Assembly (NCBI GenBank): GCA_963575745.1
Contig: CAUYUJ010000203.1
Span: 62,001-126,000 of the forward strand
Length of the DNA stretch: 64,000 nucleotides
Direction of reading: 5' to 3'
Source: Prorocentrum cordatum
Taxonomy: Eukaryota > Sar > Dinophyceae > Prorocentrales > Prorocentraceae
The notes under the pieces: generated by a model
The model's input: only the letters and a program-made list of their open reading frames with translations
Databases searched by the model: none
Told to the model about the DNA's origin: nothing
Translations under genes and position numbers: made by a program
Shown: positions 4,255 through 61,753 of the stretch, in pieces
Layout of the letters: each line of letters begins with the position of its first letter
Numbering within the stretch: the first letter of the stretch is position 1

Positions 4255-4458
4255 CCCTCCTCCTCCTCCTCCTCCACCTTCTCCTCCTCCTTCTCCTCCT
4301 CCTTCTCCTCCCTCCTCCTCCTCCTCCTCCTCCTTCTCCTCCTCCTCCTCCTCCTCCTCCTCCTCCTCCTCCCTCCTTCTCCTTCTCCTTCTCCTTCTCC
4401 TTCTCCTTCTCCTTCTCCTCCTCCTCCTCCTCCTCCTCCTCCTCCTCCTCCTCCTCCT
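4255..4458. repeat. (TCC)n/(TTCTCC)n microsatellite, one side of the SL retrogene
   Basis: About 200 bp of CTC/TTC triplets directly abutting the 3' side of the minus-strand SL retrogene. The same repeat type resumes at 6828 beyond the SL, so the retrogene interrupts a TCC array. Confidence 0.9.
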
Positions 4459-6805: not shown

Positions 6806-6827
6806 CTTGAGCCAAAATGGCTACGGA
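6806..6827 (-). other. Relic dinoflagellate spliced leader (22 nt)
   Basis: The complement of 6806-6827 matches the 22-nt dinoflagellate SL in full, starting TCCGTAGCC and ending GGCTCAAG. No splice donor or SL-RNA body follows, so it is an SL on a copied mRNA, not an SL-RNA gene. GGA repeats precede it on its own strand. Confidence 0.95.
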
Positions 6828-6865
6828 GTCCTCCTCCCTCTCCTCCTCCTCCTCCTTCTTCGCCT
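6828..6865. repeat. (TCC)n microsatellite abutting the SL
   Basis: CTCCTCC triplets immediately beyond the SL, matching in type the array at 4255-4458 on the other side of the retrogene. Confidence 0.85.
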
Positions 6866-7439
6866 CCTCCTCCCCTTGTCCGTCCATTGTTTTGGACTCC
6901 CAGATTCAATCGGTCGTTGAAAGCAGGTCGTTGCAAGTAGGTATTCTTCCGAGGAGGAGAGGGTACCCCTACCTCTACCCTTCCCTCGTCTTCCCCTTTC
7001 TGGGGCCTCCTGGGAGGCCCACGCTGCCACCGCTGGGTTCGCCTCGAAATCCTGGTCAGAACGCACCCCAGGAGAGGTCGAGGGGGTGTGGCGGTATCGG
7101 TACTTTTTGGTTTCCCAGTGAAGTCCGAGCATTTTCTCTGGGTAGAGGGCAAAGGGTGAAATCTGGAATGCCGTTTCGACGGATGTTCGAGGCTTGACTC
7201 TGCAAAAGGTGAATGACAAGTCGGATTGAGTTTCGAGGTGCAGAAGCCCATATGGATTTCACCCTGAGCCCTCCACCCTAAGAAAATGCTCAGGAATTCC
7301 CATATTCCACTCTAATTACTTTAAGCTCTTGCCTACTTCAATGATCGAGTGGCTTCACCGTTTCCCTCCTCTCGGGGGGCGCGCGGAGGCCCAATCTACT
7401 TTCACAGCCTTCCTACTCCATGTTCCTACCTGCAGTGGG
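6866..7439. other. No gene seen
   Basis: Mixed-composition sequence without repeats or frames that I can support as genes. Confidence 0.5.
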
Positions 7440-10854: not shown

Positions 10855-10899
10855 CTCCTCCTCCTCCCTCCTCCTCCTCCCTCCCTCCTCCTAAGACTC
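10855..10899. repeat. (TCC)n array with left target duplication of element 1
   Basis: CTC-rich microsatellite whose last 16 bases (10884-10899, CCTCCTCCTAAGACTC) recur exactly at 17758-17773, right after element 1. A further copy of the TAAGACTCC interruption occurs near 17890 within the array. Confidence 0.85.
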
Positions 10900-10900
10900 G

Positions 10901-10922
10901 TCCGTAGCCATTTTGGCTCAAG
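10901..10922 (+). other. Spliced leader at the 5' end of element 1
   Basis: Full 22-nt SL match, TCCGTAGCC through GGCTCAAG, beginning one base after the target repeat. The retroposed RNA was therefore a trans-spliced mRNA. Confidence 0.96.
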
Positions 10923-10942
10923 TCCGTAGTGTTTCACTCAAG
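10923..10942 (+). other. Decayed second SL copy
   Basis: TCCGTAGTGTTTCACTCAAG directly follows the intact SL and keeps its start (TCCGTAG) and end (CTCAAG) with a mutated middle. It fits an SL inherited from an earlier round, upstream of which a new SL was spliced. The following 10943-10985 matches element 2 after its SL pair, so this is the conserved element 5' UTR. Confidence 0.8.
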
Positions 10943-11101
10943 GACTGAGTATTTTGGCGTGGGGGAGCAGCGGCCCCCGAAGGCTTCCGTACCTCCTCTC
11001 TGCCTGCCCAGGCTGGAGGTACCTCTTACACGTGCTACATCGGGACCGTAAGTTCCCTTCAGCAGTTACCAGTTACATCACTTTGCAGCCTGCGAGGGCG
11101 G

Positions 11102-12190
11102 ATGTCTCAGGGTGATGGACGGGCCCCGAAGACGAGCAGGCACGCCCAGAAACGTCGTGCTGATGCGACGGATTGGGTATGCCGCTGGTGCGTCCACCCT
11201 GTGTCAGGCGCGGCTTGGTGGAACAGATCGGACAAAGTGTCATGTCAGAAATGTGGTGTCGCCAAGGCCTCTTCCTTCCTGGAGCCTCGGTTCAAGCACA
11301 CGGCGCCGTCGCAGAAGCAGCAGCGTGCCGACCGTGTGGCCTCTGCCGAGCCGCCGCCGCCATGGCATGCACGCAAGCTCGCGGAGCTGGAGAAGCAGCT
11401 GGCGGCGGCGCGGCAGCAGCTGGCCACCGGTGGGAAGACAGAGAGCAACGCAATGGAGGTCGACGTGGAGAGCGGTGAGCTGCCGCCGCAGACTACCGCT
11501 CAGATCCGAGTTCGCCTTGACGAGATCGATGAGGCCATGCGGGCTATCAAAGATCTCAAGGACCCCTGCTTCGAGAAGGCCAGAGAGGACTTTGAGGCGG
11601 AGCGTAAGCGGCTGCGGGTGGACTTGGAGGCGTCCAAGCCAGTGCCTGCGCAGCTGCGATCGTTGTCATTCCAGTCGGCTAAGTGGAATTCCAAGAAGGT
11701 CAAACACGAGGGCCTGTTGGCAGCCGCCAAGCAGGAGTTGCAGAAGCTGCAGGAGACCATCCGCGAGCAGGAGCAGTTGGTGGTCGAGGCCGAGCAGGCC
11801 ATCTTGCAGATTGCAGAGGAACAAACTAGGCTGGCGTCTACGGTGCCGAGGCCTCCACCGTCCTCCACTGAGGCGGGCGAGCTTGTGGCCGCCCTTGGCA
11901 TCACGGTCGACACGCTTGGAGGCATCTTGGCAGGACTCGGAGACGACGGTCAATTGCAAGCGAAATTGGACTCGGCCTTGGAAGAGGTGCGGGTACTTGA
12001 GGAACGTAAGCGACAGGGGCGGGCGGTACCCGAGGCAGCACAGCAGGAGAAGACTGAGCCGCAGCGGGGGGCCGCCCCACCTGACGATGCCAGGTCTGAG
12101 CCTGGGGGAGTCGACGTACCAACACCAGACGACACGGACCTGGAGGAGCTGCGAGCTTTTCTGGGGCGCTGGTGTCGCGGTGCAGCCTGA
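11102..12190 (+). CDS. Element 1 ORF1: zinc-finger, coiled-coil protein
   Basis: 362 codons from the ATG at 11102, 160 bp after the SL pair. A four-cysteine finger (CRWC near residue 28, CQKC near 49) has a Trp-rich loop, which suggests nucleic-acid binding. Residues about 90-120 and 150-330 are charged, heptad-rich coiled coil (for example LAELEKQLAAARQQL). The tail ends acidic, DDTDLEELRAFLGRW, as in element 3. LINE ORF1 proteins typically bind the element RNA; that role is inferred here. The frame is intact. Confidence 0.75.
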   Translation: MSQGDGRAPKTSRHAQKRRADATDWVCRWCVHPVSGAAWWNRSDKVSCQKCGVAKASSFLEPRFKHTAPSQKQQRADRVASAEPPPPWHARKLAELEKQLAAARQQLATGGKTESNAMEVDVESGELPPQTTAQIRVRLDEIDEAMRAIKDLKDPCFEKAREDFEAERKRLRVDLEASKPVPAQLRSLSFQSAKWNSKKVKHEGLLAAAKQELQKLQETIREQEQLVVEAEQAILQIAEEQTRLASTVPRPPPSSTEAGELVAALGITVDTLGGILAGLGDDGQLQAKLDSALEEVRVLEERKRQGRAVPEAAQQEKTEPQRGAAPPDDARSEPGGVDVPTPDDTDLEELRAFLGRWCRGAA

Positions 12191-12379
12191 GGCCGATGAG
12201 GCAGCGATCCGTGGGAGCGTTCGCAAGTTGGCCGAAGGGCTCAATGAATGGTCCAAGGTCCAGGGCCTGAACCGAGAAGCGAGCCAAGGTCCAGGTCCCC
12301 GCCTAGGGAGGGACGGCCTTCGGCACACACACGTTGTTGCTCTGCGCACTTCTCGGCACGTACTCTGTTTGTATGGTTG

Positions 12380-13475
12380 ATGGCTCTGGTTCGAACAGTG
12401 GGTGCCATGACGTCGCTGGGCACGGTAGCAGGGTCGCTTGCTGCGAATCCACTGTTCCAGGAGCCTGGCGGCAGTGGAGCTGCTGATGTGGTGGCCAGGG
12501 CGCGCTGCCTGGGTCGGAGCGGCGGCGGCAGAGCCAAGGGCCGTGGCAAGGGACTGGGAGGACGAGCCGCGGACGCGCGGGTGGCCGACGCCTCGTCCCA
12601 CGTCCGACCTCCTGCTCGAGACGTCGACGGACGTAGCGCCCCGAGCGGGAGGGCTGCCGCGGCCCAGGCGGGTCCGCGGCCGCTTGACTCCAGGCCCCGA
12701 CATGGTGCTGAGCTGGACGGGCCAAGCCATGGCGCTGGAGGCCTAGTGGCCAAAGGCCGTGGCAAGGGGCGAGCTAGGCGAGCCGCGGACGCGCGGGTGG
12801 TCGATGCCTCGCCTCTCGCCCCTGGGCCCACTCGGGCCGTCGACGGACGGAGCGCAGCCCCGAGTGGGGCCTTGGCCACAGAGCAGGCTGGTAGCAAGGG
12901 CAGCATCGCGACGTTGAATTGTTCGTCCGGGAAGCAGCTGCTCGAGTACATGGTGCACTGCAGTCACACAGTGGTCGCGGTGCAAGAACACCATGTTGCT
13001 CCTAATGATCTGGCTGATGCGCAGCACCGTTTGCTGGGCGCGGGCTGGCAAGGCATGTGGGCAGCAGCTAACCCCACTGGGCAATGGCGGCACGCAGGCA
13101 GGGCTAGCTGTATTGGCGAGGCCGAACGTCCTGATAACGCGTGGGCCGCGCCTGAACGGGCAGACCGAGCTGGCTGGTGGTCGAGCGTTGCCTGCCCAAG
13201 TCCACTGGGGAGTTCCTGGAGGAGTGGTGCTGGTCTCAGTGTATATGTGCGTCAATGAGGGTTGGTCAGACAATAACCTACACATCATGCAAGAGGTTAG
13301 CAGTTATTTGGAAAAATTGAATCATGCTGGCTACGATTGGATTGTGGCAGGAGATTTCAATATTGAAGCGTCGCAGTTTGGTGATATGCGGTGGCTGCAC
13401 GGGCTTGGCGGTATGCTTCGGGCTCCAGTTGCGACCGCATGTCGACAAGCTATGCCTGGTAGTTGCATCGACTAG
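12380..13475 (+). pseudogene. Element 1 ORF2 start: basic linker and EEP endonuclease (broken)
   Basis: A likely ORF2 ATG at 12380 (MALVRTVGAM) opens a Gly/Arg-rich linker, then an EEP-family endonuclease that would nick target DNA. Visible motifs: ATLNCSSG (Asn), VQEHH (catalytic Glu), VSVYM (Tyr) and AGDFNIE (Asp, Asn). The frame slips near 13080, where NGGTQAGLAVLA continues one frame over. A TAG at 13473-13475 follows GSCID, exactly where element 3 has Tyr (TIIDYF). After it comes FPHLPV, equivalent to the usual SDHxPV but without the Asp. Confidence 0.75.
12531..12900 (+). repeat. 215-bp internal tandem duplication in ORF2 linker
   Basis: 12531-12746 and 12747-12900 are tandem copies encoding KGRGKG then RAADARV and DGRSA twice. 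It lengthens the linker before the EEP nuclease; element 3 lacks it. Confidence 0.7.
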
Positions 13476-15892
13476 TTCCTCACATCGTCTAACTTGGTGA
13501 CACGTGTTGGGCAGCCGTGCGTACAGGAAGCGACTACCACTTTCCCACACTTGCCTGTGTACATGCCTATCAGTGGTAAGGACATCCAGTTGTATCATCG
13601 TGAACTTCGTGGGCCGCGTTCTGTGCCCAAGCAGCCGAGACCAGGATGTTCGAGGTTCCCATTATGTTGGCATGGAGTGGCACGTCTTATAGATGCCGCG
13701 TGTGACGATAGCAGTTTGCAAGTGGCATGGGATGCAGTGTTGAGCCACATCGAACTGGAGCTGCTTGCCAGGCATGACATCGCTGGTGCCAAGGTCGAGC
13801 CGTTCGTCGGAGCATGTGGCCCCGTCGAGTTCGAGAAGGTCAAGCTGCAGTGGCAACCGCAACAGAAACGTTCATACTTGTCGAAAGCAGCCAATGCGTG
13901 GAGTGTCGCGGCCAGGTGGGCACGACATATGCGTGGGGCGAAGGAAGCGATCACCAACGTCACGGCGTTGGTGAGTCACCAGCAAGAGACAGGCACGTTG
14001 GACACACCCCTTTATCACAAGCTGTCGAACTTGATGATTGAGCTTGGCCGTTTCGTGGCGAAGGTGTTGTCCGAGACGGCCGTGCTTAGCGAGCTCGACA
14101 GCTGGGCGTCTGACGTTTTTCTTTCAGGAATGGAGTTCCTTGTCTATCCAGAATTCGATGCAGTGCTAGATGCGATCGAAGCCAAAGCAGCGGAGCTTGC
14201 TGAGGCACGCAGCCAGAAGACCGCCAAAGCCTGGAGGGACTGGGCGGCAGCTAGCTTCATTAATGGTGCGCGTTTCGCGCATAGGCACACGAGGGGGAGG
14301 GCGTTGCAGGAGGTGGTTAATGCAAATGTGACTGCTCGCACGCCGGCCCAGCCGCATCAGTTAGCCGATAAGGCCATGCGGGAGTGGGACAATATCTGGA
14401 CGATGCATGATGTTGCCGCCCCACAGTTGCCAGCAGAAGCGCAGGACTGGGAAGAGCTCCCACCTTTGACTGTGCTAGACGTGCAGCGCGCCATTCTTCA
14501 GTTTCCATGGGCGACGGGAGTCGGCCAGTTTAGCTTCGCACCCCGCAGTCTTATTTTCCTGAGCAATTCAGGCCTGGCGGCCGTTGCCAAGCTATTCATG
14601 AAGTGTGAAAGTCTCTTGATCTGGCCATCTTGTAGACTGCTGACGCAGCCAGTTCGCCTCCCCAAGGCGTCAGGGGGATGCAGATTGATAGCGCTCTTGA
14701 ACACGCTTCTGAGAGTCTGGGGTAGAGCCCGCAGGCCCATGGCGGCCGCCTGGGAGGTCGAGCATGACCTCGAATGTTTCTGGGGGGCGGGAGCTGGTAG
14801 GTCGAGCTCGGACAGCGCGTTTTCTTTGAATCTTGATGCTGAGATAGCGCGCGGGATAGGAGAGGACAGCCTCACAGTCTTTATCGATATGCTGAAATGC
14901 TATGAGACTGTCATTTTGCAGAGCCTGCTTCACGAGGCTAGGCTGAATCAGTTCCCGATGAGATTAGCATGGATGACGATCCAGACATACTTGCAACCTC
15001 GCTGCCTGCGTGCCTTTGCTTCGCTGCCTGTGCCAGTGCATTCCAATCAGGGAATCCTAGCAGGCTGTTCTTTGGCCACTACAATGCTTCGGGTCCTTTT
15101 GCATAGAAGCCTGCAGGATAGCATGACTATATGCCCCACGGTCAAGCCACGATCTCTGATCGATGACGTGAGCTTCCACTGGACTGGTGAACGGGCCAGG
15201 GTGGGAGAGCACGACGGTCAGGCCAGAGACTTGGCCAATGCAGTTCACAGCTTTTGCCTTAGCGTGAGGCCGCTAGGGTTAGTAGTCCAGCCGAGCAAGT
15301 CAGGGTTCGTTGCGAACACGACTCGAGGTCGATATAGATTCGCTCGATTAGTCAAGCTTCTTCGTATGAGAGCGAAGCGAGCGATGCGCAATTTAGGGCA
15401 CGAGATGCACGGCACTAGGGTCTTGCGTGTGCAAGAAAAGACGCGTCTTAAGAATCTCACGGCTCGTAGGCGCAAAGTGTGGGGATTGAAGCACGCCGCG
15501 GGGGAGGCCGTGAAATCTTTGTGGAGGGCGGGGCTCCTCCCAGCTGGCGGCCATGGCGCTGGAGTGTCTGGGATATCCGGCACGGCTATTCGAAAGCTTC
15601 GAACGTTCGCTGGAGGCATGTGCGGGGCCAAGCCCAAGGCGTCGCTCACTCTGTTTTTAGCAACGCAGCGAGACGACAGGTTCGATTCCATTTTTGATGC
15701 GACGGTTCCTCTGGTGGTTAGGTTTGCTTCGTTCATCTGGGACAATAGGGTCGCGCCTGGGCGGCTCCGTAGAGCATGGGATGCGGTCAAGGCCAAGCTC
15801 GACCATCGCACCTCGTGGACCAGAGCTCGTGGCCCCATCGGCTCTGTTTGGGTCACGCTTCTGCGAGTGGGTTGGACGATGTTTTTCTCCAA
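13476..15892 (+). pseudogene. Element 1 ORF2 reverse transcriptase
   Basis: About 800 codons open after the TAG, in the same frame as the end of the EEP domain. A long linker (to about 14580) precedes the RT core. Finger motif LPKASGGCRLI is near 14655. Motif A is FIDMLKCYETV, with the catalytic Asp at 14886. Motif B is NQGILAGCSLAT. Motif C is SLIDDV, with the Asp pair at 15162-15167, so the usual F/YxDD is LIDD. Motif D is LVVQPSKSG. It would copy element RNA by target-primed synthesis. The frame slips at the T run near 15890 and continues in the next frame. Homologous to the RT of element 2. Confidence 0.85.
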
Positions 15893-17190
15893 CAGTGCTT
15901 GTGGACGATCGAGGTCGCCACGTCGATTTAGTGAGGAATTGCCCAGGTGATGTGAAAGCCTTCTTGGAGGAAGGCCTTCGCCGCTGGCAGGTATATAGGA
16001 TCCTTCAGCACCTTCCCAACAGCCTTGGAGAGAGCTGCTGGAGGAGGGGAATGCGGAAAGCAGTTCTTGCAGTGAGAGACGTTGCGAGGCGAGGCGCCTT
16101 GCGAACGCTCTGGTCGTCAGGAGTTTGGACCCCCGAGCGGTTGCACAGCATAGGTCTTCGCAGTTCCCCGCAGTGTTTCGTGTGCAAGCAGGCGATTGGC
16201 AACGAGTCCCATCAATGGTTCGAGTGCGAAGCCATGTTAGAAGGATTGGACGTGACAGTTCCTGATCGTGTCCTCGAGCTTAGGACGGCCATCAAGGCCA
16301 AGCATAATTCGCAGTCTGGAGCGGATCAATTTTATCTCAGCTTCGGTTTGCCGCCTGAGCCGCCAGCGCTGTCGCCCCCGAGCGACGTGTACCCTGTGAT
16401 GGGATGGGGGGACTGGCGTGGGCGATGGGGGCGGAGGGTGTTCGCGGACGGAAGCGGCCAAGCGTCGTCGATCCCAGAGCTGGCCCGCTGCGGCTGGTCA
16501 GTGGTAGAAGTCGACGATGCGGGCAATGTTTTGCGTGCAATTTTTGGCGCGCCCCCAGGAGCGGTACAGACGGTGCCGCGAGCGGAGCACTACGCAGCGC
16601 TCAAGGCAGTAGAAGTTGCGCAGCAGCCAGCGATTGTCGTTTCAGATCACCTGAATCTGGTGCGAGAGGGGTGTGCTTGGTCGGAGGCAGCTGCCTCGTC
16701 TAGTGGCCGTCGCGCTGCGGTGTGGGAAAACATTCGTCGGATCTGTTCGGAGGCTCCTCCTACCTTCGAGTGGGTCCCAGCCCACGGAGATCTCTCGGCG
16801 GTCTTGGAGGCCCCTGATTGCGATTTTGTCCGTTTCGTTGCGCACGAGTGGGCAGACTTCTTCGCCGAGCGTGGGGCTCTGGTGCACTCTACAGGCCAGA
16901 CCATGCAGGACTATTATATGCAAGCCATGAAGGCGGCCAAGGACCATTCCCATGTGTTTGCATGGATGGCCCAAGCAGCCGCCAAAAAGAAGGTGGAGCT
17001 CCAGCCCAGGGAAGTTGTGCCGTCTCAGGTCTGTCGTGTCGTCACCACCCCCCTGGTTGTGCTGGACTCGCATGAACTTCGATATTGCGAGAGCCTGTCA
17101 GAAAACAGGTGCCTGAATTGTAACAGGTTCGCGAGGACTCCCGACTCCTTAAGGCCCTTCGAGCGAGGCGATGCGAGCCCACGGATCTCC
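15893..17190 (+). pseudogene. Element 1 ORF2 zinc knuckle and RNase H
   Basis: Continues the RT one frame over. A zinc knuckle CFVCKQ...SHQWFEC (about 16176-16235) is of the kind found after LINE RTs. RNase H follows: FADGSG (first Asp, about 16443), PRAEHYAAL (Glu), VVSDHLN (Asp), WVPAHGD (His) and HEWADFFAERGA (final Asp). All catalytic acids are present. RNase H would remove the RNA strand during cDNA synthesis. The frame is lost again near 17190. Confidence 0.82.
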
Positions 17191-17591
17191 TGCGAGCGAT
17201 GGCGACGCGTTATTTCGCCCTCACCCCCGAGCGCTATCGGCACGCCTCGCTTGCGGCGGACGCCGCCGTGCGCGCTGCAGGCCTTGATGAAGGCCCAGGG
17301 CCCCCTGGAGGCCCGCCTGCGGGAGGGGGAGTGGGGGCTAACGTCGTCGCCGTCGGGGTCGATCGGGAGGTGGAATTGTATTCGGAACTTGGCCACGGTG
17401 TGGAGCGTTTCGGTTCCACGGTCATCTGCCTCTGCTGTGGGGCTTTCAGTGTGGCTGGAGGCCGCATCCGCAAGCTGCGTGCCCAGTGCAAGGGGCACTC
17501 GGACGTAGCTTCCACGCGTGCGAACGAGGAGATGCAGATCTCCCGTGCGTTGCGCGGGCTGCACCCCCGATCGGGGGACCCTTGCCCATGA
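17191..17591 (+). pseudogene. Element 1 ORF2 C-terminal paired-Cys module
   Basis: After RNase H, the upstream frame carries a first Cys cluster (RYCESLSENRCLNC, 17090-17125, then ISCERW). The next frame carries CLCCGAF, a distant Cys (QCKGH) and the ending RALRGLHP. Element 2 has the same arrangement (CRVC; CMSC; RKC; RGLHP). This looks like a conserved double zinc-binding module ending in L-R-G-L-H-P. It resembles nothing I can name; its role is unknown. Confidence 0.65.
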
Positions 17592-17757
17592 TGCCCTCGA
17601 CGCCAGGTCTCCTCCGTCGGCCTTCCGACGCGGCGGGGACGGCGCTGTCGAGGACTAGCGGCACGGTGCGATGGCTCGTGGCCTCGCCGTGTTGCTTCCA
17701 ACTTCCTTCCCGCTGAAGCGGGTCCGCACGCTCGGACTCGCTCTTCATCGCTCGCTG

Positions 17758-17973
17758 CCTCCTCCTAAGACTCCTTCCTCCTCCTCCTCCTCCCCCCTCC
17801 TCCTCCTCCTCCTCCTCCTCCTTCTCCTTCTTTTCCTCCATCTCAGACCTCCTTCCTCCTCCCTCCCTCCTCCTCCCTCCTCCTCCTCCTAAGACTCCTT
17901 CCTCCTCCCTCCCTCCCTCCCTCCCTCCCTCCCCTCCCTCCCTCCCTCCCTCTCTCCCCCCCTCCTCCCCCAG
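17758..17973. repeat. (TCC)n microsatellite with right target duplication
   Basis: Starts with CCTCCTCCTAAGACTC (17758-17773), the exact match of 10884-10899, then runs as TCC/TCCC repeats. The TAAGACTCC interruption recurs at about 17890. Confidence 0.9.
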
Positions 17974-31869: not shown

Positions 31870-32800
31870 AGCATGCCAAGGGTGTGCCGATATGGGGCGG
31901 GGCCGCCATGTGGGCGCTGCCACTGGGGCATTCTGTGGAACGCATGATGGGGCCGCGAAACGTGTTCGGGGTACACCGCAATGGGGCGGGGCCGCCACTG
32001 GGGCATTCGGTGGAGCTCCCTCTGGGGCCACGAAACGCTGTACACCGCCACTGAGGCCTTCGGTGTGGAGCTACCTACGGGGCCACGAAGCGCTGTACTG
32101 GGTGGGGGAACCGCATGCGGACACCGCCACTGAGGCCTTCGGTGGAGTCCTCCATGGGGCCACGAAGCGCTGTACTGCTTGGGGGAACCGCATGCGGACA
32201 GCGCTGCTGAGGCCTTCGGTGGAGCTCCCTATGGGGCCACGCAGCGCTGCACTGAGTGGAGGATCCGCATGAGGAAACCGCTGCTGAGGCCTTCGGTGGA
32301 GCTCTCTAAGTGGCGACGAAACTCTGAATTGGGTGGGGAACCAGATGCGGCCACCGCCACTGAGGCCTTCGGTGGAGCTCCCTATGGGGCCACGAAACGA
32401 TGTACTGGATGGGGGAACTGCATGCGGAAACCGCTGCTGAGGCCTTCGGAAGAGCTCCCTCTGGGGCCAGGAAGAGATGTACTAGGTGGAGGATCCGCAT
32501 GCGGACAGCGCTGCTTAGGCCTTCGGTGGAGCTCCCTCTGGGGCCACGAAACGCTGTACTGGGTGAGGGAACCAGATGCGGTCACCGCCACTGAGGCCTT
32601 CGGTGGAGTCCTCTATGGGGCCACGGAACACTGTGCTGGGCGGGGGAACCGCATGCGGACACCATTCAGGCCTTCGGTGGAGCTCCCTATGAGACTACGA
32701 CGCGCTGTACTGGTTGGGGGAACCGGATGCGGTCACTGGCCGACATTGAGGCCTTCGGTGGAGCTCCTTGAGGGGTCACGGAACTGGGAGGGTTGTGCCG
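31870..32800. repeat. 77-bp minisatellite
   Basis: About 12 degenerate units of 77 bp containing GAGGCCTTCGGTGGAGCTCC, TGGGGCCACGAA and GGGGGAACCGCATGCGGAC. As 77 is not a multiple of three, no single repeated protein is encoded. Confidence 0.9.
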
Positions 32801-44415: not shown

Positions 44416-44480
44416 GAGGCGGAGGAGGAGGAGGAGGATGGAGGAGGAGGATGGAGGCGGAGGAGGAGGATGGAGGAGGA
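44416..44480. repeat. (GGA)n array with left target duplication of element 2
   Basis: GGA repeats with ATGG interruptions. The last 20 bases (44461-44480, ending GGATGGAGGAGGA) recur at 51009-51028 just after element 2. Confidence 0.85.
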
Positions 44481-44482
44481 TG

Positions 44483-44504
44483 TCCGTAGCCATTTTGGCT
44501 CAAG
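44483..44504 (+). other. Spliced leader at the 5' end of element 2
   Basis: Full 22-nt SL match preceded by TG, after the GGA array. Confidence 0.96.
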
Positions 44505-44523
44505 TCCGTAGCGGTTGCTCAAG
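44505..44523 (+). other. Decayed second SL copy
   Basis: TCCGTAGCGGTTGCTCAAG keeps both ends of the SL with a changed and shortened middle, as in element 1 (10923-10942). Confidence 0.8.
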
Positions 44524-44646
44524 GATTTGAGATCTGGCAGGGGGGATCGCGCGGCCCCCGACAGCTTTCCCTTGCGTTCGCCCGCCAGGCATCTTCCACA
44601 TCACGTTCAGGCTATCGAAGCGCCACTTTCACTGCCCACATCCTCG

Positions 44647-45963
44647 ATGGCTCCTTCTTCGTCTCGCTTCACTTATAACCCGTGGGCGCAAGCATCTGAG
44701 GGTGATGACGGGGAAGGGGAGTGGCAGGTCAAAGGCGGTGGCAAGTGGTACAACAAATTCAAGTCGCCCATCAAGTGCCCAGGTTGTGGGTGTCGTAAGA
44801 ACGCTCCCTCGGCGAAGTGGTGCAAAAACTGTCATGGTCCTCTCCCTCAGGTTCCAACTACTCCTGGTCGCTCTGGCCCTCTTGCTCTGTCCTACTGGTC
44901 GAGACCGCCTGGGTGGTTCGGCGCTGCCTCTGGGAATAAAGGAGGGCCTGGTGGTAAAGGCGTCGGCAAAGGCAAAGGCAAGGGTTTCAATGATGCGTTT
45001 CGGTTCGAGTGGCATGGTTCAACCCCAGGAGGCCAGCTGCAGCCCGCAGGGATGGGAGGGGGTGCCCCGCCGCTCCCCGCTGGACTTGTTCCTGCGCTGT
45101 CCGTCGATGAAGCTAAGCAGATGGCCTCCCTGTCGTACAAGGCGGGGGATGCTACGAGGGCTACGAGGGGCAAGTACTATACCGACGTGGCGGCCAGCCT
45201 GGAGGCCGCCAGCAAGCCTACGGAGATCAATGTCCACCAGCAGGTTCAACAGCAGCATGCCGCAGTCCGTCGCCTGGAGAAGCAGCTCGAGGGACAGCTC
45301 ACTCGCTTGCTCAAGTGGAAGCAGGAGACTGCAGAGCTGGAGGAGCAGGTTCGCCAGTCGCGGGACCAGCTCGGCAAGGCCGATGAGGAGTACAAAGCGG
45401 CGGTCGAACGGCTTCGTGACAGCAGTGGCGCAGGCGCGACAGGCGCTGGAGAGACCTCGGCTCCGCGCAGCACTCCAGCCATCCCGCTGCGGGACATCAT
45501 GGAGGGCAAGTTCGATCTCACGAGCATTATCAAGTTTGACATTATGGAGGAGTTCGAGAGCAGCGAGTACGATGTCACGATGGAGATCGCAAGGAGTACC
45601 AGACTCGGCTGGAGAAGTTGCAGTCTGGCGTGCAGGACCTGTCCAAGTCATTGTTCGAGCAGCTCACCTCTACGGCCGCGGAGGTCAAGGCAGCCCATCT
45701 GGCTCACAAGGCACGGCTTCAGCGCAAGCGACGTAAAGGTGACGATGGCGAAGGACTTCCTGTTCAGGACGATGACGATGCAGGTCGCGGTGCCGCGGCA
45801 GGTGGAGGAGAGGCTGCTGCGCCTTCTGAGCCAGGCGCCGCGTCTCAGCCTGCTGCGAGGCCTGCCGCTGCTGCTGCAGCCGCTGACATTCGAGCTCGGG
45901 TTGACCAACATTTGTCAGGTGTTCCCCCCCCCTCGCTTGAGGGGGGGCGGCCTAGTGGTGTAA
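44647..45963 (+). pseudogene. Element 2 ORF1: zinc finger and coiled coil (frameshifted)
   Basis: The first good ATG (44647, MAPSSSRFTYNPW) lies 123 bp after the SL pair. A CPGC...CKNC finger at about residues 41-59 is followed by a Gly/Lys-rich KGVGKGKGKG stretch and a long coiled coil (RLEKQLEGQLTRLLKWKQET). Near 45590 the frame slips; the coiled coil continues one frame over (EYQTRLEKLQSGVQDLSKSL) through an Ala-rich tail. The displaced frame runs out at 45963. The role is presumably RNA binding, as for other LINE ORF1 proteins. Confidence 0.7.
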
Positions 45964-46389
45964 ATTGTGGCACTCCGAGCTCGGGTGACTTGTCCTCTTT
46001 TTTTCAACTTTTTGGCAGGCCGAGTCTCTTCTGTTGGCTCTCAGTACAGAAGTCAGGCTTGCGCTTGGCGCGCAAGCTACACTCGATGTCCCAGGGCGTC
46101 TCCGAGTTTTTTCCTGCTCCAATTTTTCCTTGGGACCCTCATCCTGTGCCCCCAGGTGACCGTGAAATCCCTGATCCTCGTCCCTCTTCTCCCTGGTCTG
46201 GCAGATCAGACGTTGAGCGATGGTCCCGCAGCCATGGTGTCGCGCGCTTGCCGCCATCCGATCTTTTTTGCTGGAGCAAGTACGGTCAGGGCCTCCAGTC
46301 GGGGAGGGGCTATGGACTGGTCAGCCCCCGCCCCTGCGCCTCCAGCGACGTCTGGTCCAGCCAGGCCACAGAGTTGCGGGCTCGACGAA

Positions 46390-47083
46390 GGCCTGCCGGT
46401 GTCCACCGTGAACGCCAACTGCTGGGGCACACTGAAAAAAACTACCTTACGAGCAGTGTATCGCATATCGTTATCGCGCAGGAGCATCGCCTACGAGGTG
46501 ACGACGATATTGCAACGGCCGCGAAAGGGACCAAGTTTTTGGGTTGGGAGTCGCTCTGGGCTCCTGGTATAGTTGGCGAGGGCGGGGACACCTCCTCTGG
46601 GGTCGGCGTCATTGTGCGTGACGCGCTCGGCATGTTCGAGCACCAGGACGAGATCGTGCTGGCCGAGGGCCGCGCGATAGCAGCCATGGTGCACGTGCCA
46701 GGGTGCGCCACCTTCTGCGTCTTCTCCCTCTACCTCCGCCACAGCGAAGGTCTGTCAGAGGCCAACTTGTCTATCTTAAAATCAGTGGGGGGAATTTACC
46801 GGGGGTTTAGAATGCGATTTCATCATTGGGGCTGACTGGAATTTCCCCCCCGAGGCTTTGGCTGCGTCTGGCTTCCATGCTAAGGCTAATGGGGTGATTG
46901 TCAGTTCCTAAGGGCACGCTCACTTCCCCAGGGTCGGCACCCCCGAACGTTTTGATTTGTTCGTTGTGTCGCGCGCCCTCTCCCTCGGTCTCAAGCAGAT
47001 CGATGTGCAGGGGGACTCGCCCATCCACCCTCATAGACCTGTGTCTCTGCGTTTCCACGCGTCTGTTGGTGATCTCAAGGCTC
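46390..47083 (+). pseudogene. Element 2 ORF2 EEP endonuclease (broken)
   Basis: The EEP nuclease is spread over frames. STVNANCWGTLK lies before an A run near 46435, where the frame shifts. Then IVIAQEHRL (Glu), GVGVIVRDA and FSLYLRH (Tyr). A second shift falls near 46800, then IIGADWN (Asp, Asn). A TAA stop lies at 46909-46911, then RFDLFVVSRAL and HPHRPVSL. The final His is present, but the usual SDH is PH. Confidence 0.72.
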
Positions 47084-49320
47084 TCGCCTTCCGACGCCCG
47101 CATGACCTTCCTGTGGGGCCACCGGTTGGCCCGCAGCCTGAGCCTGGGTCGTGGGAGGTCCCCCTTGGGCTGGCGCGCGAGGCTTTTCGGGCGGTGCAAG
47201 AGGGCGAAGGTGATCGTGCTCGTGCTATGCTGGCCCCTGGATACCGTGCGTGGGCCAACTCGGCCGAGCGGGACCTCAGCGCCATCATGGGGGTGATGGT
47301 TCCTAGGGGGGCCAGGGGTAAGCGGCCGCAGATGCATTGGAAGAGCATTCCGGAAGAAGGGGGCCGTGAGCCTAATCCTACCCTCAGGTCGGTGCTTTGG
47401 TTGAGCAGCCAACTTCGTGCTCCCAGGTGCTACTTAAGCTCTGAGGGCCTTCTAGATGGAGGTCGTCAGGTGCTGGCGGCGCTCGCGGAGCCGCCGACGA
47501 CGGTGGCGGTGGCAGAGAACTCAGACTATGCGCCTCTTTTTCGCACTGCCGCTGGCTTAGCGCGTAGTCTGCTGCGCTCGGTGGACGATCCCGAGGTGGC
47601 CGCCGACCTCGATCGGCACATCTGCGAAGTTTCTGAAGCTTGTGTCACTGCTAAGGCATCCGCGGCCAAGTCCTCTCGGATGGCATGGTGCGAATGGGTG
47701 CGTCAAGGGCTCGAGAAAGGGACGCGTAATGCGCAGAGGGCTATTCGGGACCCTGTGGCCTGGGCTCCCACCACAACTCTCTGTCGCTCAGGCATTGCGG
47801 TGTCAGATCCCATGAGCTTGCTCAAGGCTGAATCGGCCAAGTTTATTTCTATCTGGGGGGAAGGTGCTGGCCAGGGTCTTTGCGGTAAGGAATTGTTGTC
47901 ATGCCCCCCCCCCTTCTCGAGCCCGACATCATCAGGGCCATGTCCAAGAAATATCGGCCTGCCTCTGCTGTCAGCTTGGACGGCTTCCACTGCCGTCATT
48001 TCAGCCTGCTCCCTGACGAGGCTCTGATGGCTCTTTTTCTGTGGTTCTCGGTCATGGAGGCCACGGGGTCCTTGCCTGTCCAGCTCTCTTGGGTGCTGGT
48101 CGCCTTGTTGGCCAAGCCCTGCGGGGGCTTCCGGCCCATCGGGATTTTTCCGAGCTGGTACCGTGTCTGGGGCAGGTGCCGTCGTTTCGAAGCTCTTCGT
48201 TGGGAAATCCAGCACAGCCGCCATTACTGGGCGGCGGGGGCTCACCGTGGTGCGGGGGGCGTGGTCTGGAGGCAGGCTTTCAGAGCGGAGTCGGGGACGG
48301 TCAGAGGTCAGGTCAGCGCGTCTATGTTTTGGGATTTGCGTAAGTACTACGATCACATAGACCTCGGCTTTCTTTGGGCCACGTGTAAGCATCATCAGTT
48401 TCCTTTGGAAATCGCGCGCCTCGCGATTCACGCCTACTCCTGCGCGAGGTTCATGACCCTGGGGGGAAGTGTCGACGGCCCCTTCTATGCCCTGAGAGGG
48501 ATCGTCGCGGGTTGCACCTTCGCGACGAGCCTTATTCGGGCGTTTGCCTTAGAGGCTTTCGACTCCATCCCGAGGGGACCTGATTTTGACGTTTATGTTG
48601 ACGATTTGAGCCTCAGCGCGACAGGCAAGCCCAGCTGTGTTTCGAAGCTTCTTGTTTCAGGCGCTAGAGCTCTGCACTCTGCGATCACGACGAATATCAA
48701 GTGCAAGCTGGCTATGGACAAAGTTGGCATGGTCTCCAGCAGCAAGCACATTTCTGCTGCGCTCTCGGCTGAGCTCGGGGACTTAGTTGGCGATCCAGCT
48801 TGCACTCGGGTGACCAACTTAGGTGTGGATTTCACGGCTGGCAGAGCGGTCAGAGCTCCTGGAAAGAATCGGAGTTCCAAGGCTAAGCAGAGGGCGGCAG
48901 CGGCCCTCAGGAAAGCTCGCCGTCTCGGGAGATTGGGCCCCACTCTGGGGCGCAAGGTGGTTAACATCTTCACCTCTGGACCCTTAGCTGGGACTGTGTA
49001 TGGTTCGGACTTGCATGGGGTCTCTGACCGTGAGCTGCTGTCGCTTCGACGATTGGCCATGTCTTGCGTTAAACCCTCTGTCCAGGGTAGGTCCCTTGCC
49101 GTTTTGTGTCTTTTAGAAAGGACCCCACGTGGAGGGCCAGCTGCGCCCCTATCATCCGCTGGGCCAAGGAGGTGTGGATCCGTCAGGCGAGGGCCTTTGA
49201 GTGGGCCCTGAGCTGGGCCGAGCTTCGGACTGGGTGGAGTTCGGTTTTTCAAAAAAGACGACTGGACCTGGGCCAAAGTTTCGGGACCTATCTCAGGGCT
49301 TCGAATGTCGCTGTACAGGC
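47084..49320 (+). pseudogene. Element 2 ORF2 reverse transcriptase (broken)
   Basis: An upstream linker is open to a poly(C) run at 47901-47911, where the frame slips into the RT core. The finger motif contains KPCGGFRPIGIFPSWYRVWG. Motif A is MFWDLRKYYDHID (Asp at 48333). Motif B is RGIVAGCTFAT. Motif C is VYVDDLSLS, a canonical YVDD at 48594-48605. Then KLAMDKVGMVSSS (motif D). Two more shifts near 49110 and 49300 follow. The two catalytic Asp of motif C and that of motif A are intact. Confidence 0.83.
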
Positions 49321-50500
49321 TTGGGTGGACCATGCCCAATTTTACTACCCTCGTGGACGATTTTGGTCACGAGATATCTCTCACCTTGTCGCCGCCCAAA
49401 CTGGTGAAGCTTTTTTGTTGCAAGGCGGCTGTATTTCGGAGCCTTGAGCGGGATTCCGGGGACAAGTTTCAGGCTGGTGCCCGTCTCTGTTGGGACGTCC
49501 CACAGAGACTTCTTGCGTCCAAGAAAATCCATGGGGTTCAGAAGGGTATGATCCGTGCTCTGGCCACCAATGCCTGCTGGACTGCAGGCGATGCAGCCGA
49601 CTTAGGCTACCCCATCTCCAGTTTGTGCCCGCTGGGCTGCGGCGCCAAGGACACCCTGTTTCACCGCCTCTGGGCGTGCCCGTGCGCGCAGGCCGAGCGG
49701 GACGAGTGCATGCCGAAGTGGATCCAGGAAGCGGCGCTTGAAGTGCCTGAGAGCGACCCCGAGAGAAAAGCTATGTGGCTTCATGGTGCGTTCAGACATC
49801 CTGGGGACTGGGCTCCGAAGCCGGCTATCTCGCCCGACGGCGTCACTGTCGACTGGCATGTTGACCCGCTCCCTGATCCTGCCAGGCCAGGCTCGCCCCC
49901 CTCCATTGTTCCCAGGGGCGGCGTCTGGGGGCACCTTTTCATGGATGGGTCCTGCTCTAGGCACCAGGTTAGGGAGTTGTCTAGGGCGGGGTGGTCTGTT
50001 GTTATGGTCTCGGAGTCGGGGGAGAAGCTTGGGGTCATAAAAGGTCCCCTCTGGGCTCCGTGGCCTCAGACCCCCCAGGGAGCCGCATTTGGCGCCCTAG
50101 CCTGGACTGCGTTGTGCACGGAGGTCCCTGCTCAGTGTTAGTCAGATTGTGCTAATGTGGTGATGTTGCAGAATCTTGGCGGAGCCGAGGCGTCTGGCCC
50201 AGCCCGTCAGTACGCTGGCTTCGTCATGCAAGCTCGCCACCATTTTGGCCGCTTTTGCGAGGGCATCCACAAAGTGGCTGCCCACAAAGATCTGGAGGAG
50301 GAGGGTTCGTCGGCGGAAGGGGCGCTTTCGGAGGTTGGGTAATGCGTATGCCGACGTCGAGACGAAGGAAGGTGCGACGCGGCATCCGACTATGACGCCA
50401 ACGGAGGCCGATGCTTTAAGTCGTACTTTAAAGATTGCTAGGGCTGTGTTGCTGGGCGGAGCAGCGTTGCCCCCGCTTTGGCCCAAAGTCGAGTTCCGTG
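49305..50500 (+). pseudogene. Element 2 ORF2 zinc knuckle and RNase H (broken)
   Basis: GWTMPNFTTLVDDFGHEISL aligns with the same region of element 1. The knuckle is CPLGCGAKDTLFHRLWAC (about 49626-49680). RNase H has FMDGSCS (first Asp, about 49940), then QGAAFGALAW, where the catalytic Glu expected at the second Ala is missing. A TAG at 50139-50141 is followed by SDCANVV (Asp) and VAAHKD (His). After a shift near 50340 comes GNAYADVETKEGA (final Asp). RNase H could not be active as read. Confidence 0.75.
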
Positions 50501-50913
50501 GCTTGGAGCGAGTCCAGCCGCCGAAGCCACCACGCCCTCCTCGGCTTGTGCTGGAGCACGATTGGGACCGCCAAGGTAGCTTTTGGAGGTGCCGCGTGTG
50601 TTTGCGAGGCTCCAGAGCGTCATCCCTGCCGAACAGCGGGTCGGAATGTGCGGGCCGCAGCAGGCTCGACAGGTGCGTTCTGGAGCGTCTCGGGCATCGC
50701 GTGGTAGCGTTCCCTTGCACTGATAATGCTAACCTGTTCCTTTGCATGTCGTGCAAGTTTTATAGCAGTGGTGGAGTTGTGTTAGGCCTGGGGCGTAAGT
50801 GCGCCCCACCTGCGGAGTCTGGCGTGAAGAACATGCGTAAGCTCCGTAGAGGCCTGCATCCTGATAAGAAGGGTGTTTACGTCGACATCGACGAATTCAT
50901 CCCGCTGTTATAA
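50501..50913 (+). CDS. Element 2 ORF2 C-terminal paired-Cys module (partial)
   Basis: The frame running through the end of RNase H continues to a TAA at 50911. It holds WRCRVC, a later Cys pair (SECAGRSRLDRC), LCMSCKF, GRKCA and then RKLRRGLHPDKKG. The order matches element 1 and defines a shared double metal-binding C-terminus. The last exonic text is VYVDIDEFIPLL. An 87-bp 3' UTR precedes the A run. Confidence 0.7.
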
Positions 50914-51009
50914 GGTACAGGTTCAGTGCCGCACCAGTTGCGCCTCTGGGCTGGTCGTGCAGACACTGTTCTCATAACAGAGGCCGCGGCGTTGCTGCTC
51001 AAAAAAAAA

Positions 51010-51178
51010 GGAGGAGGATGGAGGAGGAGGAGGAGGCGGAGGAGGAGGGGGCGGAGGAGGAGGAGGATGGAGGAGGAGGAGGAGGCGGAGGAGGAGGAGG
51101 AGGAGGAGGAGGATGGAGGAGGAGATGGCAAGCTAGGCGGAAGAGGAGGAGGAGGATGAGGAGGAGGAGGAGGAGGAG
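51010..51178. repeat. (GGA)n microsatellite with right target duplication
   Basis: Begins with the same 20 bases that end the array left of element 2, then runs as GGA repeats. Confidence 0.9.
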
Positions 51179-60806: not shown

Positions 60807-61753
60807 AGGAGGGGCTCAAGTTTTCTGGCGCTGCCAGCGAGGCCACGGGTGGCGGCAGCGGCACCAGGGACGTCCACGGCGAGGGCGCCTCCGTCGAACC
60901 GAGCGGCCAGGGCAAGTTGCACGAGGAGCTGGAGGCCCTGGGCGGCATGGTCTCAGTTATGGCCGCGTCTGCTAAGTCCAAAGAGATCGGCCCGACCACG
61001 CAGCACGTCGACCGCATACGCACCACGCTCCACGGCGACCCGCAGCACGTCGACCGCCGACCAGGTCGGCCCGACAACGCACCACGCTCCACGGATACCC
61101 GCAGCACGTCGACCGCACCGCGCAGATCCGCGCGGAGCTGGCCGCTGCTCGCCCTCTCCTCGTCCAAGGCGCATGGCTGCGTCGATGAAGTCACAGCTGT
61201 GGGCAAGGCCATCGATCAATGGGAGGCCGGCTTCGCAGCAGAGCAAGCAGATAGCGTTGCGAGGCAGGCTCGGGCTGCCGAGATCCAGGAGCTGATCAAT
61301 GCTAAGCAGGCCGCGGAGCTGGAGCTGGAGCTGGAGCGCCAACGCTCGGAGCTGCTGCAGAGTCGCGTGCCGGCCGAGGAGACCGAGAGCTCCGCCGGCA
61401 CGGCGCTCGAAGGTTTCGCCGCGCACCTGGCCAAGCTCCAGTCGGTCATGCCACAGTTGGGCGCAGGCCAGGAGCTGTTCGAGCTATGCGCGCAGCACGC
61501 GGTGCCCTTCGTCGAGCGCACGCGCAAGGCGCGCGCGGACAAAACCGCCGAGGCGCAGGCGCAAGGAGCAGCGCCCGCCCCGGCGCCATCTGCTCCTGCT
61601 GATGACGGCGGGCACTGCGCTGTATCTGATCTTGACATGGATGATATGGACATGGAGGGGGTCAAGGCTTTCATGGCTGACTGCGAAGTGGAGGTTCCCC
61701 AGGAGGAGCCAGAGATCCGAACTCGGGCCAAGCGCCTCGCCAAGACGTTCTAG
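60807..61753 (+). pseudogene. Element 3 ORF1, N-terminally incomplete
   Basis: Open to a TAG at 61751-61753; the first internal ATG is at 60947. A 57-bp near-tandem repeat (THVDR-like text, 60990-61110) precedes a strong coiled coil (AAELELELERQRSELLQSRV). Then comes an acidic tail with DLDMDDMDMEGVKAF, comparable to DTDLEELRAFL in element 1. No Cys finger remains. Inferred role: RNA-binding ORF1 protein. Confidence 0.65.

Follow-up and report, generated by a model that had tools for sequence, protein, structure and literature searches.

LINEs of the dinoflagellate Prorocentrum cordatum that begin at the host spliced leader

The window analysed here is a stretch of 64,000 nucleotides (nt) from Prorocentrum cordatum (C203:62001-126000 of a host assembly of 4,128,499,153 bases in 21,875 contigs), and it contains a long interspersed nuclear element (LINE), termed LINE A, whose first bases are the spliced leader (SL) that the host adds to its mRNAs by trans-splicing. 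An earlier, sequence-only reading of the window had described exact 16-bp repeats around a 6.86-kb LINE, with one G and then the 22-nt SL at its start, and this description was confirmed. The features of A, including two open reading frames (ORFs), lie at the following window positions:

10884-10899, plus strand: upstream target-site duplication of A, CCTCCTCCTAAGACTC, an exact 16-mer
10900, plus strand: single G between the duplication and the SL, read from the sequence
10900-17757, plus strand: LINE A (6.86 kb), flanked by 16-bp direct repeats; its first letters are one G followed by the exact 22-nt dinoflagellate SL
10901-10922, plus strand: SL TCCGTAGCCATTTTGGCTCAAG, the first bases of A, exact over 22 nt
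10923-10942, plus strand: second, eroded SL-like unit of A, TCCGTAGTGTTTCACTCAAG (SL alignment p=0.003)
10900-10986, plus strand: 5' module that A has in common with LINE B (SL plus ~65 nt; 81% identity over 89 columns, E 1e-14)
11102-12190, plus strand: ORF1 of A, with a CxxC zinc-finger-like start and a coiled-coil-like part (by eye) and a weak Pfam zinc-finger match (0.015)
12918-13475, plus strand: endonuclease part of ORF2 of A, with an in-frame TAG at its end (Exo_endo_phos 2.6e-4)
13476-15950, plus strand: reverse transcriptase (RT) part of ORF2 of A (RVT_1 2.4e-4)
15661-17508, plus strand: zf-RVT/RNase H part of ORF2 of A, in another frame (zf-RVT 4.3e-4; RNase H 6.2e-3)
17758-17773, plus strand: downstream target-site duplication of A, an exact 16-mer
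17882-17897, plus strand: third copy of the duplication 16-mer, in the flank, an exact match

The Pfam matches of A (Exo_endo_phos, RVT_1, zf-RVT and RNase H) all fall under the gathering scores and are weak but consistent with one another, and a protein search with A at E <=1e-5 returned a single match, a Prorocentrum cordatum protein (3.5e-92). ORF2 is interrupted by the in-frame TAG, whose last letter is 13475, and shifts frame several times, and this copy is therefore broken; it has no poly(A) tail. The duplication is not plain tract sequence and is flush with the element at both ends, and its third copy in the flank is accounted for by the target of A, a pyrimidine microsatellite. The G at 10900 may be a copied cap.

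When the window was searched for the 21-nt SL core at up to three mismatches, three sites were found, all of them exact, as compared with none in 100 shuffles. Besides the site in A, these are the first bases of LINE B and the head of a retrocopy, C; a further LINE, D, is cut by the window end:

44462-44480, plus strand: upstream target-site duplication of B, 19 nt followed by TG, in a GGA tract, read from the sequence
44483-51009, plus strand: LINE B, with an exact SL start, an A9 end and 19-bp repeats in a GGA tract
44483-44504, plus strand: SL, the first bases of B, exact
44505-44523, plus strand: second SL-like unit of B, TCCGTAGCGGTTGCTCAAG (SL alignment p=0.001)
44482-44567, plus strand: 5' module of B, from the alignment with A
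44647-45963, plus strand: ORF1 of B, with a CxxC zinc-finger-like start (by eye) and weak coiled-coil matches
47889-49211, plus strand: RT part of B (RVT_1 7.3e-6)
51001-51009, plus strand: poly(A) tail of B (A9), read from the sequence
51010-51028, plus strand: downstream target-site duplication of B, read from the sequence
6806-6827, minus strand: SL heading retrocopy C, an exact SL used as a comparison site; C is without a LINE match
60821 (approximate)-64000, plus strand: LINE D, cut by the window end, an RT profile match; the start of its ORF1 is not seen

The RT of B is ~27% identical to that of A, and the two B frames scanned gave no Pfam match to Exo_endo_phos. The 19-mer that flanks B occurs five times in the window, which makes the B repeat weaker evidence than the A repeat. 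In D, Exo_endo_phos reaches 0.021 (Pfam, below the gathering score), and the visible frames show neither a zinc-finger-like ORF1 start by eye nor a Pfam match for one; the last eight SL letters stand at 60813-60820, in front of D, and may be a truncated SL or a chance occurrence.

Outside the window, the host was sampled over 290 kb in adjoining stretches (C1:1-210000 and C2:1-80000), which together with the window yield 329 kb without N, the basis for the counts of LINE loci and SL sites. An RT profile built from the RTs of A, B and three LINEs from this sample, E, F and G, together with those of six database relatives, identified six LINE loci (A, B, D, E, F and G), five of which start at the SL. 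With LINE H added, an SL start is seen at six of the seven LINE loci, D being the seventh. The SL is exact in A, B, E, G and H and has one mismatch in F, and in all six elements the body begins directly after the last SL letter. Counted from the SL side, the sample holds ten SL-like sites at up to three mismatches and seven at up to one, and six of these seven are LINE starts; for the three sites with three mismatches, the searches that were run revealed no link to a LINE. Copies starting mostly upstream of the SL, which would have told against the sequence-only reading, are thus not what this small sample contains. RVT_1 was matched in A, B, E and F, each time below the gathering score, and the RTs of A, B, E, F and G are 24.7-45.7% identical to one another, so the SL start is a trait that spans deep lineages. 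An apparent start codon directly behind the SL of E was dropped as a candidate, as ORF1 lies in another frame.

LINE H, to which the RT profile responded weakly (E 0.14), starts at the SL at C1:63461 and extends to about C1:74100. Its open frame of ~2380 residues has RT motifs recognised by eye, and its RT region has 11 protein matches at E <=1e-5, of which those named by organism are from Symbiodinium; in one of the latter, P0013, both an RNase H and an endonuclease domain (Exo_endo_phos 2.9e-11) were recognised. A search of PDB sequences with 1567 residues of H gave no match at E 0.01. An RNase H-like stretch (Pfam 0.063) precedes the endonuclease and RT in H, and in P0013, too, RNase H comes before the endonuclease. 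RNase H ahead of the endonuclease is a seemingly unusual order for a LINE.

These starts make it very likely that the RNA that moved was a mature trans-spliced mRNA, as the sequence-only reading had proposed. An SL attached at integration, by a template switch onto SL RNA or onto the end of a cellular mRNA, is an explanation we regard as highly improbable: LINE-1 is able to join other RNAs into chimaeras (PMC13174262; here and below, PMC numbers stand for excerpts of the papers), but such switching would be expected to leave varied junctions or the SL-RNA intron, and the six LINE bodies start right after the SL.

The insertion boundaries were then compared. Between the duplication and the SL stand G in A, TG in B, AG in E and GTC in F; a copied cap would explain the G that adjoins the SL in A, B and E, and F does not fit. 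Duplications outside plain tract sequence are found in A (16 bp) and F (15 bp), and the sample has just two occurrences of the 15-mer of F, whereas those of B (19 bp), E (19 bp) and H (a 15-mer) lie within low-complexity GGA/TCC tracts. In a chance control, a 15-nt repeat was found 5-7.5 kb downstream of 110/914 tract sites compared with 14/2208 random sites. Poly(A) tails are present in B (A9) and F (A8). At six of the seven SL sites with up to one mismatch, the GGA/TCC density is above that of 97% of sampled positions, F being the exception, and the corresponding sites are as follows:

Window 10860-10899, 44430-44482 and 6828-6880: GGA/TCC insertion sites
C1:600-637, C1:63400-63460 and C1:130110-130169: GGA/TCC insertion sites

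Insertion at GGA/TCC microsatellites suggests a target preference of the endonuclease. When 600 nt upstream of each of the seven SL sites were compared (blastn, E 1e-3, low complexity masked), nothing common was detected, and therefore no longer conserved start was seen around the SL, such as would have placed the leader inside a longer LINE 5' end. As for flanking sequence of another kind, a tandem repeat of ~77 bp occupies window 31917-32784, and the flank of LINE F in C1 resembles a related repeat by eye.

Past the SL, A and B continue to resemble each other. Their match extends over the first 89 alignment columns, with the next DNA match at E 0.46, and the similarity past the SL (~65 nt) exceeds that of 5000/5000 shuffles under two gap costs; among the 15 pairs of the six LINEs, only A-B beats all shuffles, the next being B-G (17/300 shuffles). 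The A-B pair was not among the hits at E 1e-3 when 600-nt pieces lacking the SL were compared by plain blastn. The module is found in A and B only, and four of the six LINEs lack it, E included. In the RT tree, A groups with E (45.7% identical) and not with B, A, E and the database relative P0001 being joined with support 1.0. Because the RT pairs A with E, which is without the module, the tree and the alignment together indicate that the module has either passed from one lineage to another or disappeared from E.

A conserved stretch of ~65 nt stands at the place expected of an internal promoter, which would drive initiation in the flanking DNA just upstream from a 5' untranslated region (UTR) behind the SL, with trans-splicing trimming the transcript. 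Such an arrangement would be comparable to Pr77, a 77-nt promoter common to trypanosomatid LINEs (PMC4748587, PMC8190864). The other four LINEs lack the module, which is a weak argument against this explanation, as they may own different promoters; we consider the explanation unlikely. The layout is Pr77-like in that a conserved 5' stretch recurs across divergent elements, here A and B only; no homology is claimed. An origin of the module from SL RNA was rejected: TCCGTAG follows the SL, or GA behind the second unit, and SL genes are reported to continue with GU or GC after the SL (PMC6616646). The 19-nt SL-module junction was absent from a collection of viral contigs, protein-guided scans of the same collection yielded no relative, and three SL-bearing contigs from viral and genome contig collections had no module in the stretches around their SLs.

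The module itself begins with the second SL-like unit, composed of TCCGTAG, 6-7 nt and CTCAAG; neither module nor unit figures in the sequence-only reading. The unit bears on whether the SL might be encoded by the element and passed on as its opening part, without being re-added in each cycle. Its presence in six LINEs and the direct joining of SL and module are compatible with inheritance. However, in both A and B an intact first SL stands immediately before an eroded unit, and in E, F, G and H the sequences that come straight after the intact or nearly intact SL are unrelated; inheritance is accordingly improbable.

To place these second units in the whole assembly, we turned to genome-wide counts. 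The host assembly has 33,832 SL-like sites at up to two mismatches, as compared with 9 in a backwards control; this is a very large SL-tagged load, and some of the sites may be SL RNA genes. The pattern TCCGTAGN{5,9}CTCAAGGA has 355 matches versus 42 in the backwards control, many of them decayed SLs of other kinds, and directly behind GGCTCAAG it is found 40 times (control 0). These 40 SL-joined units comprise 16 with CGGTTG, 13 with TGTTTCA, four with GCGTTTCG, two with CGTTTCG, one each with TGTTTCG, TGCTTCG and CGATTG, and two nearly intact SLs. Among the first 100 of the 355 matches are 17 of the module type, and a check against the SL-joined list showed that 16 of the 17 are directly joined to the SL 3' end, the missing one being on C4448, which again fits transposition of an SL-spliced mRNA. 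Contigs up to C2637 hold nine copies of the module; eight of these have the exact 21-nt SL core followed by TCCGTAG, and the C16 copy lacks it.

Counts of the two junction types, neither limited to LINEs, place these units in a broader setting. SL plus TCCGTAG at up to two mismatches occurs 1,701 times genome-wide and SL plus CCATTTTG, the published relict form, 3,927 times, the first 100 listed being exact in both cases; by our own arithmetic, chance among the 33,832 sites would produce about two exact SL plus TCCGTAG junctions and, with two mismatches allowed, could account for several hundred of the 1,701. Other decayed SL forms, for example TCCGTAGTCTTTGTGGCTCAAGGA on C630, C1152 and C1459, recur identically at many loci, and further families therefore seem to have multiplied after SL decay.

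Because an older SL stands behind the fresh one, an SL-headed copy probably served as a parent at least once in the A/B lineage. The opposing explanation is that the copies are dead on arrival: LINE mRNAs would receive the SL like other mRNAs, and the RNA would come only from a small number of master loci, each equipped with an upstream promoter and acceptor of its own. Stops or frame breaks in A, B, F and G and the abundance of SL-like sites genome-wide speak for this, and E, F and G have a single SL with no older one, where the SL start by itself does not prove parenthood. The older SLs behind fresh ones in A and B and the 40 SL-joined units in families nevertheless require an SL-headed parent at least once, and H retains its long open ORF2; dead-on-arrival copies are thus a rather unlikely account, if the least unlikely of the alternatives considered.

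The published relict SL is cut after nt 7 (Slamovits and Keeling 2008, via PMC3229502). This form (CCATTTTGGCTCAAG) is found in none of E, F and G, and the A/B unit keeps TCCGTAG instead. As relicts would accumulate in a LINE lineage over many cycles of splicing at nt 7, the single clean SL of E, F and G would be best explained by re-splicing at the AG of the SL 3' end, or by an acceptor at precisely this point in the parents.

Overall, we favour, with some confidence, the explanation that these are apurinic/apyrimidinic endonuclease (APE)-type LINEs whose mobile RNA is the mRNA after trans-splicing of the host SL. Target-primed reverse transcription would proceed to the 5' end of the RNA (the SL and sometimes perhaps the cap), leaving full-length copies that start at the SL beside the duplication. 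A new copy would be transcribed together with its surroundings by read-through, and trans-splicing at or near its own SL, using the AG at the SL 3' end, would supply a fresh SL and restore the correct 5' end. Trans-splicing would in this way stand in for the 5' promoter or the 5' self-cleaving ribozyme of other LINEs, and the need for a promoter would disappear. That it replaces the promoter as the regular life cycle is close to an even question on the present evidence, and leans slightly to the negative. The sequence-only reading held that the element must be transcribed by read-through or be released by trans-splicing; this "must" was too strong, as a promoter within the 5' UTR (~140-330 nt, by eye) that fires in the flank may also act. 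A life cycle different from that of ordinary LINEs, which the same reading proposed, is plausible.

Several observations weigh against this account. D shows no SL within three mismatches in the window search. The duplications of B, E and H are weak evidence, as chance repeats are common in low-complexity tracts; the 15-mer of H lies 10.8 kb downstream, beyond the 5-7.5 kb range of the control, and G has no exact duplication, just an 18-mer with two mismatches. No older SL was detected behind the first in E, F and G (p 0.71-0.87), and among the 40 SL-joined second units LINE identity was checked for A and B alone. The RT profile derives in part from loci later found with it and so favours those loci, and H was picked out by its SL and long ORF, such that equally divergent LINEs without an SL may have escaped. 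Finally, the evidence is genomic DNA throughout, and any transcription start, promoter and acceptor are putative.

The older SL in A and B may have a role as RNA. The second unit retains its inner hairpin, with T-A, T-G or C-G as the third pair in six of seven module variants; the GCGTTTCG variant needs a bulge to form it, and TGCTTCG and CGATTG were judged by eye. Compared with the canonical SL, the A-type unit has changes on both sides of two pairs. Short hairpins as stable were obtained in 2/1000 plain shuffles of A and 0/1000 of B. Against the hairpin, the outer two pairs are fixed by the search pattern and double changes are few, and the third pair is also kept in most decayed SLs outside the module, mainly through unchanged SL letters.

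In a joint fold of A and B, helices form between SL letters and the body; in B, CUCAAGUCC pairs with GGAUUUGAG, and A shows a bulged form of this helix. A test for an SL-body helix returned p 0.0125 for B and 0.0095 for G (a 9-bp helix) and 0.19-0.72 for A, C, E, F and H; bulges were disallowed in the test, the helix of A is bulged, and none of the seven sites tested survives correction. The modelled SL-body helix is thus a lead. When the SL was kept constant and 48 nt of body were shuffled, shuffles matched the native stability in a fraction of 0.02 for A, 0.20 for B, 0.40 for E, 0.06 for F, 0.55 for G, 0.003 for H and 0.01 for the non-LINE C; since the folds of H and C beat their shuffles, fold stability is no mark of the module. 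Two further candidates were set aside: the whole 5' end as an unusually stable fold had no support (z -1.25 in A and -0.78 in B), and for a hepatitis delta virus (HDV)-like ribozyme there was no Rfam match at the gathering score in the window (A, B), a threshold that weaker or undescribed types may escape, and no 5' P1 partner by eye.

We tentatively propose two linked ideas, which we hold jointly and at somewhat less than even strength. These LINEs may leave it to host trans-splicing to define where they begin, gaining a new SL in every cycle, with the SL in the DNA acting as the next acceptor and hence as a self-regenerating, removable 5' cassette. In the A and B lineages, the older SL may in addition have become a 5' RNA element with a structure under selection, in which paired changes preserve the hairpin and the adjoining stretch can pair with the fresh SL.

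Parts of this picture overlap with known biology, as dinoflagellate retrocopies carry SLs (PMC3229502, PMC6050394) and LINE mRNAs would be expected to do so as well. As here, SL-tagged retrocopies have the SL written into DNA at the 5' end and older SLs behind fresh ones (PMC3229502, PMC6050394); unlike them, the LINE copies encode the machinery, and the A/B unit keeps TCCGTAG where the published form is cut after nt 7. SymbioLINE of Symbiodinium (PMC5890265) is likewise a dinoflagellate LINE with ORF1 and ORF2, but its ORF1 includes a DNA methyltransferase (PMC5890265), for which ORF1 of A, B, E, G and H gave no Pfam match up to E 0.1. In the excerpted text of PMC5890265, "spliced leader" appears 0 times and "trans-splicing" once, not in connection with LINE 5' ends. 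The trypanosomatid L1Tc/ingi elements also inhabit trans-splicing hosts and have a short conserved 5' stretch across elements and a device that sets the RNA 5' end (PMC4035085, PMC4748587, PMC8190864); in contrast to the LINEs described here, where the SL comes first, that end is set by a promoter and an HDV-like ribozyme, and the transcripts are called unspliced.

With APE-type LINEs in general, these elements have in common the endonuclease, RT, RNase H, target duplications and, sometimes, poly(A). Full-length copies of APE-type LINEs usually start with a 5' UTR of their own, not with a host leader. The literature searched covers SL-tagged retrogenes, relict SLs, dinoflagellate LINEs and LINE-linked viral insertions with nearby SLs (PMC3229502, PMC12014239, PMC11453091, PMC5890265, PMC7245778, PMC8045281, PMC10235124, PMC10666404, PMC7789003, PMC3942190, PMC6050394, PMC6616646, PMC4035085). 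In the excerpts of it, with most subscription papers lying outside, no statement was found that LINEs themselves start at the SL; as far as this literature goes, SL-tagged retrocopies are already known and the SL start of the LINEs themselves is the new aspect.

The SL was also encountered in contigs filed under other organisms. An IMG/VR contig filed as viral (22% GC) has two SL cores 147 nt apart at 2746-2913, the second before coding-looking sequence, and is probably dinoflagellate-type DNA. The dinoflagellate SL is likewise present in two contigs assigned to Dehalococcoidia (32-52; 4334-4354), which for this reason look like contaminants of their bins.

How a new copy inherits a promoter is a central problem for LINEs, and if the mobile RNA is a processed mRNA, the problem needs another solution. 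Counts of retrogenes that are based on genomic SLs may include many LINEs, given that LINE starts make up six of the seven SL sites with up to one mismatch in 329 kb. Nested SLs, in turn, would provide a record that can be read cycle by cycle, and with it a count of the rounds of transposition.

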